From the NCBI GenBank assembly GCA_030916895.1, contig JAUPVR010000004.1:1-45065 (forward strand): a stretch of DNA of 45,065 nucleotides. The letters are read 5' to 3'. Positions 20,602 through 45,045 of this stretch are shown piece after piece (positions within the stretch are counted from its first letter, which is position 1; the number at the start of each line of letters is the position of its first letter). The DNA comes from Patescibacteria group bacterium (lineage in GTDB: Bacteria; Patescibacteriota; Minisyncoccia; Phycocordibacterales; UBA5272). The notes beneath the pieces are model-generated. The model did no database searches. It saw only the letters and a program-made list of their open reading frames with translations, and was not told where the DNA came from. Position numbers and translations under genes: made by a program.

Positions 20602-20611
20602 TAGGGACTAG

Positions 20612-41753: not shown

Positions 41754-41788
41754 GTTTCTAAACCCTAGTCCCTAAAACCTAATCCCTA
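41754..41788 (-). repeat. Heptad tandem array (GTTTCTA AACCCTA GTCCCTA AAACCTA ATCCCTA)
   Basis: Five consecutive 7-nt units ending in CTA; TAGGGAC-type on the minus strand. Confidence 0.75.
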
Positions 41789-41807
41789 TTCGTGTTAGTA
41801 TGTGTAT

Positions 41808-42608
41808 ATGAAGCTAGCAAAATCAGACTCTAATAAACCAAAAAATACTGAAACCTCGTGGGGAAATGTTGCATCATGGTATGACACACACCTTGAAAAA
41901 ACAGGCGACACGTATCATGAAAAAGTGGTGTATCCGAACCTCGCTCGATTGTTAGGTGACATGAAAGGAAAGCATGTACTTGATCTTGCGTGTGGACAAG
42001 GGCAATTCTCTCGTTTGCTTGCAGAAGCTGGAGCGTCGGTTATTGGTATTGATTTGGGAAAAGAGTTGCTCGCAATTGCGGAAAAGAAAAACAAGCCGTA
42101 CAAGTTTAAGATTTTTTATTACAATACGACAGCTCACGATTTGTATATGATAAAAGACGGCACACAAGATATTGTCGTGTGTGTGCTTGCACTTCAGAAT
42201 ATTGAAAAACTGCAAGAAACTTTAAAAGAAGTTTCTCGTGTACTTACAAAAGAAGGAAAGTTTGTGTGTGTGCTTAATCATCCGAGTTTTCGTATTCCAC
42301 GCGCAAGTGGTTGGATGTATAACGAGCATGAACAAGTACAGTATCGAAGAATTGACGCGTACCTTTCTGAATCGAAAGTAAAAATTGATATGACGCCAGG
42401 AAGTGAGAAAGATAAAAAGTTCACTGTTTCATTTCATCGTCCACTCCAGGTGTATGTGAAAGCATTTGCAAAGGCGGGGATGGCAATTACTCGTCTTGAA
42501 GAATGGGAGTCGCACAGAAAAAGTGAGAAAGGACCAAAGCAGAGACTAGAAGATAAGGCACGAAAAGAAATTCCACTGTTTATGTGCATTGAATTAAAGA
42601 AAATCTAA
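41808..42608 (+). CDS. Class I SAM-dependent methyltransferase
   Basis: GKHVLDLACGQGQFSRLLAEAGASVIGIDLGKELL. Confidence 0.9.
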   Translation: MKLAKSDSNKPKNTETSWGNVASWYDTHLEKTGDTYHEKVVYPNLARLLGDMKGKHVLDLACGQGQFSRLLAEAGASVIGIDLGKELLAIAEKKNKPYKFKIFYYNTTAHDLYMIKDGTQDIVVCVLALQNIEKLQETLKEVSRVLTKEGKFVCVLNHPSFRIPRASGWMYNEHEQVQYRRIDAYLSESKVKIDMTPGSEKDKKFTVSFHRPLQVYVKAFAKAGMAITRLEEWESHRKSEKGPKQRLEDKARKEIPLFMCIELKKI

Positions 42609-42653: not shown

Positions 42654-42881
42654 TTACTTTTCAAACAATCCTTGCAATTCTTTCTGATACTTCTTCATCA
42701 CATCAAGTGCCGCGTACATTTCTGGTTTGCCTTGCTTTTTCAAAACATCAATTTCTTTTGCAATCTTTTCAAAAAGTTTTGGGTCTTTTTCAACCGCCGT
42801 TCGTAGCATTTCTTGTTGCTCTTTTGGAAGGTTGCGTGAACCAAATTTTACTGCCTGTTTTAGGAAAAAATCTTTGAACAT
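42654..42881 (-). CDS. Hypothetical small helical protein
   Basis: 75-aa ORF, Lys/Glu-rich, no TM. Confidence 0.55.
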   Translation of the reverse strand: MFKDFFLKQAVKFGSRNLPKEQQEMLRTAVEKDPKLFEKIAKEIDVLKKQGKPEMYAALDVMKKYQKELQGLFEK

Positions 42882-42921
42882 AGGGGTAGGGGCTAGGGGT
42901 TAGTAGTTAGGGACTAGATAA
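42881..42921 (+). repeat. Heptad tandem array (TAGGGG TAGGGGC TAGGGGT TAGTAGT TAGGGAC TAGATAA)
   Basis: Consecutive units of 6-7 nt starting with TAG. Confidence 0.75.
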
Positions 42922-42925
42922 TCCT

Positions 42926-43279
42926 TTAATTTGATAATTTGCTAATCATAGCATTTAACATTTTCATGACTTCTGTGTGAAGTTTTGTAAGAGCAGTATA
43001 ATCTTCTTTTTTCAATAGTCCAAGGTCTTTCGATAATTCAATTTGTGCTTCCAATTCTGCGCCGGATCCGAAGGCAATTCTCAAAAATTGAACATATTCT
43101 TTCTTACTTCCTCTTGCATTTCCTTCGGCAATATTTGAAATAATAGAAACAGACGCTCTACGCATTTGAGAAACTAGGCCAAAAATTTCATCCTTGGGAA
43201 AATTTTTTGTTGCAGAATAAATTTTTAGAGATAACTGATATGCTTTTTGCCAAACAAACAGTTCTTTATAGGATTGCAT
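42926..43279 (-). CDS. Four-helix-bundle protein, S23/23S-rRNA-IVS family
   Basis: MQSYKELFVWQKAYQLSLKIYSATKNFPKDEIFGLVSQMRRASVSIISNIAEGNARGSKKEYVQFLRIAFGSGAELEAQIEL. Confidence 0.93.
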   Translation of the reverse strand: MQSYKELFVWQKAYQLSLKIYSATKNFPKDEIFGLVSQMRRASVSIISNIAEGNARGSKKEYVQFLRIAFGSGAELEAQIELSKDLGLLKKEDYTALTKLHTEVMKMLNAMISKLSN

Positions 43280-43282
43280 GTA

Positions 43283-43317
43283 TTTCCTAGTCCTTAGTCC
43301 CTATAACCTAGTCCCTA
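43283..43317 (-). repeat. Heptad tandem array (TTTCCTA GTCCTTA GTCCCTA TAACCTA GTCCCTA)
   Basis: Five 7-nt units; inverted relative to 42881-42921. Confidence 0.8.
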
Positions 43318-43974
43318 CTGTGCCTTTGCTTTTTTAATTAATTCATTAAATTCTTCAGGTGAACGAGGACTGTCGATTAGTTTGCCGTTTAAGAAGAAAC
43401 TTGGTGTCCCTGGGAGTTTCAAGCGTATTGCTTCTTGGTATTCTGCCATAACCTTCTTTTCAATTGCCTCACTTTTTAGATCTGCTTCAAATTTCTTTGC
43501 ATCAAGACCAAGCGATGTTGCGTAGGTGACCATCATACTGCTCGCGTTTAATGCTCCAGACCATTCAGCTTGTTTTACAAAGAGGAGATCATGCATTTCC
43601 CAGAATTTTCCTTGAACCGATGCCGCCTCGGATGCTTTTGCAGAGATGAGGGCATTTTTGTGAATTTGCATGAGTGGGAAGTGACGGAAAACGACCTTCA
43701 AATCTTGTGGGTTATCTGCAAGTACTTTTTGAATAAGTCCTTCGTATACCGCGCATGCTGGACACTGGAAGTCAGCGAATTCAACAAGGGTTACTTTTGC
43801 CGTAGGGTTACCACGAACATGATCGGTTTGTGTTACTTCAACAACACCAACAGGTTCTTGTCCGCGCGTACCAGTTACATAGAAATAATATGCGAGCACA
43901 AGCACGATAACAGCTACTAATCCGAGCACAAGTTTCATTTGTGGGGTATCTAATGATTTTGGCAATAATTTCAT
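43315..43974 (-). CDS. DsbA-like thiol oxidoreductase with N-terminal membrane anchor
   Basis: VTLVEFADFQCPACAVYEGLI; LPGTPSFFLNGKLI; ATG 43974 behind TATAAT. Confidence 0.9.
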   Translation of the reverse strand: MKLLPKSLDTPQMKLVLGLVAVIVLVLAYYFYVTGTRGQEPVGVVEVTQTDHVRGNPTAKVTLVEFADFQCPACAVYEGLIQKVLADNPQDLKVVFRHFPLMQIHKNALISAKASEAASVQGKFWEMHDLLFVKQAEWSGALNASSMMVTYATSLGLDAKKFEADLKSEAIEKKVMAEYQEAIRLKLPGTPSFFLNGKLIDSPRSPEEFNELIKKAKAQ

Positions 43975-44052: not shown

Positions 44053-45045
44053 ATGAAGAAAAAAGCTACCAATAAAAACGAAACCATAATTTACCAGACA
44101 AAATCTGGTGCACTTGAACTTCGCGGAGATTTTAAGAAAGAAACTGTTTGGGCAAACAGAATGCAAATGGCTGAAATGTTTAATGTTAATCCACAGGCAA
44201 TATCAAAACATATTCAAAATATATATAAAGAGAAGGAATTGGAACGAAAGACAACTAGTTCCAAAATGGAACTAGTTCAAAAAGAAGGAAATAGAACAAT
44301 TTCGCGCGAAGTAGACATATATAATCTCGATATTCTCATTGCGGTTGGGTACCGAATTAATTCCGTCACAGGTACAAAATTCCGCCAGTGGGCCACAAAA
44401 ACACTTCGCGAGCACCTCACACGCGGTTATACGCTCAATAAAAAAGTTATTCTCAAAAATTACGATCAATTCATCAAGAATGTTTCAGACATTCAAGCGC
44501 TTTTGCCCGCACATGTAACACTCGACCCGAAGCAAGTTTTGGACTTGGTGAAAGAGTATTCAACCACATGGGCAAAACTTGATGCTTACGACAAGAATGC
44601 ACTCAAAACCGAAGGTGTTAGTAAAAAGAAAATCAGACTCGCTTCAGGAGAATTACTTTCGGCAATTGAAACATTCAAAAATGAACTTATCAAACAAGAC
44701 GAGGCAACAGAAATTTTTGCACAAGAACGAGCACGTGGAAACATTGAAGGAATACTTGGAAACGTCATGCAGTCATTTGGTGGAAACGACGTATACAAGA
44801 CACTTGAAGAAAAAGCGGCACATTTTTTGTATTTTATGGTAAAAAATCATCCATTTGTTGACGGCAACAAGCGAACAGGAGCTTTTACTTTTATTTGGTT
44901 TTTGCGTAGATCGGGAGTAAAAGGTGCGCGCAATATTAATCCTTCCGGACTTACCGCCATCACACTTCTCATTGCCGAAAGTGATCCACGACATAAAGAA
45001 AAATTAATTGCACTTGTGGTAGAATTGTTGCACATTAAGAAATAA
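44053..45045 (+). CDS. RhuM-like N-terminal domain fused to a Fic/Doc-type domain
   Basis: RMQMAEMFNVNPQAISKHIQNIYKEKEL...IYNLDILIAVGYRINSVTGTKFRQWATKTLREHLTRGY; HPFVDGNKRTGAF. Confidence 0.9.
   Translation: MKKKATNKNETIIYQTKSGALELRGDFKKETVWANRMQMAEMFNVNPQAISKHIQNIYKEKELERKTTSSKMELVQKEGNRTISREVDIYNLDILIAVGYRINSVTGTKFRQWATKTLREHLTRGYTLNKKVILKNYDQFIKNVSDIQALLPAHVTLDPKQVLDLVKEYSTTWAKLDAYDKNALKTEGVSKKKIRLASGELLSAIETFKNELIKQDEATEIFAQERARGNIEGILGNVMQSFGGNDVYKTLEEKAAHFLYFMVKNHPFVDGNKRTGAFTFIWFLRRSGVKGARNINPSGLTAITLLIAESDPRHKEKLIALVVELLHIKK

Follow-up and report, generated by a model that had tools for sequence, protein, structure and literature searches.

An S23-family gene between inward-facing heptad arrays: a likely mobile, REPIN/RAYT-like element in a CPR-like genome

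The window, the whole 45,065-nucleotide stretch of DNA that was analysed, contains a small module in which a gene of the S23 family lies between two facing arrays of heptad repeats. We consider it likely, with a probability of roughly 0.68, that this module is one copy of a mobile, REPIN/RAYT-like element; the action of the S23 protein on the arrays is part of that reading by inference. The S23 gene and its arrays form a unit that is gained or lost whole, with a fixed polarity and with ends specific to the element. The unit has gene-less and internally deleted derivatives, and their co-occurrence with S23 is dose dependent. That the S23 protein recognises its own array and spreads array-ended segments with the help of host enzymes is inferred from association only.

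Anatomy of the window module and its S23 protein

The module, whose coordinates are given in Table 1, separates a DsbA-like gene from a gene for a conserved 75-aa protein and does not lie in an rRNA gene. The left array overlaps the CAT start codon (42879-42881) of the minus-strand 75-aa gene by its first T, and the last CTA of the right array (43315-43317) doubles as the TAG stop of the DsbA-like gene. On the sense strand the units of the 5' array read TAGGGAC TAGGTTA TAGGGAC TAAGGAC TAGGAAA. The 10-mers TAGGGACTAG (42908-42917) and CTAGTCCCTA (43308-43317) are perfect inverted copies of each other. An earlier note, made from sequence alone, had described the arrays, the gene, the coordinates and the inverted 10-mers, and all of these held on direct reading. 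It had also proposed to fold the transcript and see whether the arrays pair. In the predicted fold they do make a closing stem, yet the whole transcript is not more stable than shuffles (z = -0.97), and strong RNA folding of the module was rejected.

Table 1. Features of the module, its neighbourhood and a recurrent intergenic element
Feature	Position	Strand	Remark
Whole module, 433 nt	42882..43314	-	bounded by the stop codon of DsbA and the start codon of the 75-aa gene
5' (upstream) heptad array of the S23 gene	43283..43317	-	opens with the DsbA TAG stop; direct reading TTTCCTA GTCCTTA GTCCCTA TAACCTA GTCCCTA (right array)
S23 / 23S_rRNA_IVP four-helix-bundle gene, 117 aa, Avd-like fold	42926..43279	-	PF05635, TIGR02436
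3' (downstream) heptad array	42881..42922	-	inverted relative to the 5' array (TAGGGGC/TAGGGAC on the + strand); direct reading from 42881 TAGGGG TAGGGGC TAGGGGT TAGTAGT TAGGGAC TAGATAA (left array)
DsbA-like gene	43315..43974	-	neighbour on the 5' side of the module
75-aa conserved gene	42654..42881	-	opposite side of the insertion site
Gene-less array CTAAACCCTAGTCCCTAAAACCTAATCCCTA	41758..41788	+	directly upstream of the methyltransferase gene 41802-42608
Further gene-less TAGGGACTAG copy	20602..20611	+	
Structured-looking element, ~100 nt	L231, L236, L240, L234 (gap-rpiB gap); L196, L206 (after the 75-aa gene)		

The repeats are enriched beyond the module. With at most one mismatch, the window has nine copies of CTAGTCCCTA where 1.08 are expected, a number that none of the shuffles reached; the bare 7-mer TAGGGAC is only weakly enriched there (6 against 2.6, with 3 of 100 shuffles reaching 6). 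Over the whole genome TAGGGACTAG was found 24 times and the reversed-pattern control not once. Most of the 24 sites have no S23 gene and many are inverted pairs with short spacers, the window's S23 gene being the only one found in this 660-kb CPR-like genome (G000). The cysteine desulfurase (nifS-like) gene of the same genome also contains an in-frame TAGGGAC array, which encodes VLGARDWGLGTSTIP (about 1345-1375 of L010; ORF 226-1494 of L011). Elsewhere in the window, at 44053-45045, one 330-aa protein combines RhuM-like and Fic/DOC domains.

The window gene is a clear member of the S23 / 23S_rRNA_IVP family, on the basis of profile scores above the curated cutoffs and a four-helix fold predicted by modelling. 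Its product matches PF05635 with 136 bits (cutoff 33.8, E=5.6e-40) and TIGR02436 with 131 bits against a cutoff of 24, and the AlphaFold model is a confident four-helix bundle (pLDDT 97). The best structural matches of the model are XCC0516 (2gsc, TM 0.95), BT_0352 (2rld) and the diversity-generating retroelement (DGR) protein Avd (4dwl, TM about 0.8; 8ube). The S23 family and Avd form pentamers, with which the five chains present in each of the entries 2gsc and 2rld agree. Conserved residues include E31, Q38, R41, S45, N49, E52, R56, S72 and E75. No enzyme domain was recognised in the protein, be it nuclease, recombinase or polymerase, and it stays below the cutoff of the NCBIfam model DivGenRetAVD (38.7 bits against 80). 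Searches by Pfam, NCBIfam and fold found no transposase in the window unit, its sole gene being that of PF05635. S23 is the only gene enclosed by arrays in this unit and at the polymorphic sites that were inspected, and there is no DDE, HUH or serine/tyrosine recombinase. A single weak RVT_1 match in G000 is on a different contig from the S23 gene. PADLOC gave no match for S23 and phages contained none, so that a defence or phage gene reading is not supported. S23 matches number 23 in G160 (the 1.1-Mb Peregrinibacteria genome of L161); a Clostridia genome has 16 of them and an Aquimarina genome 15.

Inward-facing arrays around S23 genes across bacteria

Two sets of flanks were compared, those of 30 S23 genes in the window's genome and in relatives of it, and those of 80 loci from named genomes of about 18 major groups. 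On the sense strand, units of ~7 nt follow one another on the 5' side of S23; they are rich in G, A and T and usually include TAG or AG. The 3' side carries the reverse complement of that run, so both arrays read inward. In 78% of 107 S23 loci, inverted flank similarity lay beyond the 95th percentile of mismatched flanks, and in 55% beyond the 99th, as compared with none of 209 shifted-position controls above the 99th percentile; direct-orientation matches in the same test amounted to about 7%. About a quarter of the flanks, the window's own included, miss the strict inverted-alignment threshold. Flank autocorrelation peaks at 7 nt (0.393 vs 0.263) and at 14 nt. The period-7 threshold was passed by 73 of 136 5' flanks and 79 of 136 3' flanks; of the arrays that passed, about two thirds have a fully conserved AG, which holds for both sides in the inward reading, and C makes up 10-11% of the bases. 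The dominant period is 7, with 14 as a harmonic, and sometimes 8 or 9; these longer periods in some flanks led us to reject a strict heptad rule. Bracketed loci also occur in GC-rich sequence, for example L146, L158 and L171.

Plasmid-borne cyanobacterial S23 genes mostly obey the inverted-array rule, with one direct-orientation exception. This exception, on a Pseudanabaena galeata plasmid (L355, 601-960), has S23 between cas6 and cas4 and long AAAAGCT/AAAAGCC arrays that both run in the same direction. At another locus (L046, 1477-2757 in reverse-complement coordinates) the S23 frame continues through the 3' array and into the adjoining gene as a single long fused open frame. Upstream neighbours of S23 are co-oriented with it in 96 of 106 cases and downstream neighbours in 80 of 101, against a background of 299 of 372 (80%); the difference is too small, and transcription-coupled insertion was rejected.

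The ends are specific to the element. S23 copies inside one multi-copy genome bear different motifs, which rules out a motif set by the genome. The two ends of one element match each other with a median of 19.5 (n=28), compared with a median of 10 (n=136) for the ends of different S23 elements in the same genome (p=3e-14). End similarity increases with S23 protein identity. Across phyla the correlation of protein to motif is weak yet significant (rho 0.12; 0 of 500 permutations), and with so weak a between-phylum correlation a motif set strictly by the protein is not supported. The GTTAGTG motif is common to mostly gut or rumen bacteria of several phyla (L130, L133, L145, L182, L188), and S23 identity among them can be only 33-51%.

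Insertion polymorphism and array load

All 16 genomes of the genus have the dsbA-like gene next to the 75-aa gene, and the 433-nt unit is missing from this junction in 15 of the 15 other genomes. Twelve of these have no array at the junction, with a gap of 1-13 nt in 11 and of 37 nt in G015. Three have gene-less arrays, a single one in G006 and G013 and a pair around a hairpin in G001, and G000 has arrays plus S23. The DsbA stop codon is TAA at 12 of 12 array-free sites and TAG at 4 of 4 sites with arrays, a split expected by chance once in 1820, and in G000 the TAG stop is the start of the array. No clean target-site duplication was seen at the compared dsbA / 75-aa-gene junctions. Between nifS and sodA, S23 elements with differing motifs are present in G005 and G006; other genomes have gene-less pairs or single arrays at this site, and G011 and G012 just 13-18 nt. 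Between gap and rpiB, S23 is found in G003 and G008, and in G001 the arrays flank an internally deleted, 31-residue C-terminal S23 remnant (74% identity, E=8e-12). From the polymorphism at these three junctions it follows that the unit between the arrays comes and goes and that shortened versions exist. Array occupancy of one junction varies even between close relatives. A separate, structured-looking intergenic element of ~100 nt (TTACGGAG...GTAC...CTCCGTGCCTCG-like, with a closing stem) recurs at differing places in several genomes of the genus (Table 1) and has no Rfam match.

Arrays without S23 genes far outnumber S23 genes. The gene-less array statistics are based on sampled genome stretches, not whole genomes. 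Dispersed inverted repeat pairs have a fixed polarity: in the sampled stretches of five S23 genomes, 32 of 121 TAG arrays had an inverted partner on their inner side, and 3 of 121 had one on their outer side. Two genomes without S23 gave no array in 100 kb and one in 58 kb, respectively. Over 148 relatives, the median count of TAGNNNNTAGNNNNTAG was 54 with a strong S23 match versus 2 without (control medians 10 and 4). Array-rich genomes made up 39 of 53 with a strong match versus 11 of 65 without (p=6e-10), and array count followed S23 copy number with a Spearman coefficient of 0.65, unchanged when one genome per family was kept. In 151 Flavobacteriaceae, arrays per Mb rose from 2.6 with no S23 to 13.0 with six or more copies (partial rho 0.57). 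The reversed-pattern control likewise climbs with S23 number in both the relatives and the Flavobacteriaceae, less steeply.

Gene-less arrays resemble the ends of resident S23 elements over foreign ends, clearly so in G000 and G046; this test was weak or null in several genomes (G003, G124, G001), and the likeness was absent in G003. Some genomes are array-rich with no S23 over the cutoff (G030, G062, G041, G050, G056), and their arrays are possibly relics or the genes were missed. The three-unit TAG pattern has 55 matches in G030 and 166 in G062. Arrays of TAGGGACTAG are present in genus members whose sampled S23 gene has another motif, and past elements or another agent must therefore be invoked for them.

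The earlier note had read the module, by inference, as REPIN/RAYT-like, with a small gene that either travels along with the short repeats on its flanks or acts on them. Travelling with the repeats held, as the unit is missing from its junction in the rest of the genus and S23 is likewise bracketed elsewhere. Acting on them rests on association only, namely array load, the resident-end likeness in G000 and G046, and protein relatedness. The likeness to REPIN/RAYT holds for organisation and not for homology, because RAYT is an HUH nuclease and S23 is not. Of the checks that the note proposed, the search for empty sites found junctions without the unit across the genus, and the search for co-occurrence found that array load follows S23 presence and copy number. 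It had named two outcomes as refuting, the same S23 gene at this locus, without arrays, in all relatives, and arrays distributed independently of S23. Neither was met: the gene is not at the locus in the relatives, and the arrays are not independent of S23, though they persist in some genomes without a detected copy (G030, G062).

Proposed mechanism, rival explanations and known systems

In the mechanism that we propose, the facing arrays (degenerate ~7-nt units, G/A/T-rich, C-poor and usually with an invariant AG) would serve as the ends of the element. The gene-less derivatives scattered over the same genomes would consist of an array, a short spacer often with a hairpin, and a second array. 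The S23 protein, probably a pentamer like its relatives, may bind the motif of its own arrays in single-stranded or RNA form, by analogy to Avd, which binds RNA. It would then guide host enzymes in copying array-ended segments, or moving them, into gene junctions, although no catalytic step is known. A resident RVT_1 reverse transcriptase would not be required, because 17 of the 39 array-rich S23 genomes have no RVT_1 match; arrays are not reduced in those genomes, and on this ground mobility dependent on a reverse transcriptase was rejected.

The most serious rival holds that S23 is a passenger, and that an unidentified host process makes and spreads inverted heptad arrays and carries or maintains S23 inside them. 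The excess of gene-less arrays over S23 genes, the array-rich genomes without S23 and the sharing of GTTAGTG by gut bacteria with dissimilar S23 proteins speak for it. We regard it as unlikely, since in about 18 groups the arrays enclose members of one and the same gene family, two unrelated groups each show an array load that tracks the number of S23 copies, and every S23 paralog has its own motif. That the signal is a chance or compositional artefact of AT-rich genomes can be all but excluded. The mild enrichment of the 7-mer alone in the window favours it, but the reversed-pattern, shifted-locus, mismatched-flank and shuffle controls all fail to reproduce the signal, and GC-rich loci are bracketed as well.

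Two further explanations appear very unlikely to us. Arrays could be regulatory sites by which S23 governs how neighbouring genes are translated or how stable their RNA is, having spread by selection and not by transposition. Arrays do touch stop and start codons, the Avd fold belongs to the DGR ribonucleoprotein (PDB 8ube/8ub7), and MacGregor suggested translational regulation by heptamers (PMC4679880); UAG-like repeats also resemble targets of RNA-binding proteins. Against this stand the differing occupancy of one junction even among close relatives, the position of the S23 gene itself between arrays, the transposon-like fixed polarity of paired arrays and the array inside the nifS coding sequence. 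Alternatively, mobility could occur at the RNA level, with arrays pairing in the transcript, host RNase III cutting the stem, and the freed RNA being reverse-transcribed and inserted. Known intervening sequences (IVS) do consist of S23 genes whose terminal inverted repeats are cleaved by RNase III (PMC4990558), the window arrays make a closing stem in the predicted fold, and the S23 fold matches Avd of DGR reverse transcriptase complexes. However, many array-rich S23 genomes give no RVT_1 match (the 17 of 39 above), the fold is no more stable than shuffles, and the upstream co-orientation of 96 of 106 is set against a background already at 80%.

The mobile-element reading that we prefer invites comparison with REPIN/RAYT (TnpA-REP) systems. 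Both have short inverted units dispersed in intergenic DNA, mostly with one pairing polarity, and a dedicated gene beside matching repeats, the match of dispersed arrays to those beside S23 being clear in G000 and G046 and weak or absent elsewhere; in REPINs, too, different gene copies go with different repeat families (PMC3116915). RAYT is an IS200-like tyrosine (HUH) transposase, whereas S23 is a 117-aa helical protein of the Avd fold. REPs are palindromic and are analysed as 16-mers, whereas the S23 element ends are degenerate tandem 7-mers; and each RAYT is single copy, in contrast to S23 genes, which sit within an element and occur in as many as 9 copies in the genus and as many as 23 in other genomes. 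The S23 system is not a member of REPIN/RAYT because the defining HUH transposase is absent. IVS of 23S rRNA, such as that of Coxiella (PMC4990558) and the rRNA insertions of CPR bacteria (PMC11270868), resemble it in having an S23 gene within terminal inverted repeats and in being sporadic and apparently mobile, and the IVS ORF was long ago suggested as a mobility component (Ralph and McClelland 1993, as cited in PMC4990558). The window element differs in lying between protein genes, in its heptad-array ends and in its many gene-less relatives in the same genome; the rRNA intervening sequences may be rRNA-inserted cousins of S23 elements. With Avd of DGRs, S23 shares the fold and a distant sequence match, but it is under the NCBIfam Avd cutoff; no reverse transcriptase lies beside the gene, and the genome often gives no RVT_1 match at all.

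Orphan heptamers are known as GGGAATC in Xanthomonas and GGGGA(C/T)T in Nostoc (PMC4692102) and as TAACTGA in Beggiatoaceae (PMC4679880). Like the arrays described here, they are tandem heptads and mostly intergenic. Xcc has 70 convergent pairs among 186 repeat sites (Rehm et al., PMC4692102) and encodes XCC0516, the best structural match of the window S23 protein. Rehm et al. found no general association of the heptamers with mobile elements (PMC4692102); both papers discuss G-quadruplexes or regulation, with no mechanism of spread, and a term search of the two texts found no mention of S23. The S23 system could conceivably explain the Xanthomonas, Nostoc and Beggiatoa heptamers, for which we have no data from those genomes. 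S23 genes in cas loci have been noted as a CRISPR-Cas-associated function (PMC3936711); insertion by an array element is a possible and simpler reading. No earlier link between S23 and heptads was found in the literature searched, most subscription papers and preprints being outside its scope. Subject to that scope, the S23-array system appears to be undescribed, and we do not assert priority.

S23 probably is the master gene of a widespread mobile-repeat system, its role in spreading being inferred. A bolder reading, which as a joint claim we could as readily doubt as accept, is that S23 proteins found a bacteria-wide class of mobile repeats, in which a protein of the Avd fold, lacking its own nuclease and reverse transcriptase, would read its own ~7-nt code, host enzymes would write and spread the inverted arrays, and the code would shift from element to element. 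The class would also account for the long-unexplained excess of heptamers in bacterial genomes. Structures have been solved for the S23/IVS family, whose function is unknown, and the over-representation of heptamers in bacteria has lacked a mechanism. A single anatomical rule, S23 between inward-facing heptad arrays, joins both puzzles and gives each a testable function. If true, this would be a REPIN-like system with a non-transposase protein and a repeat code that apparently diversifies element by element, and it would explain why S23 genes are found inside unrelated operons such as cas loci, dsbA, nifS-sodA and gap-rpiB.
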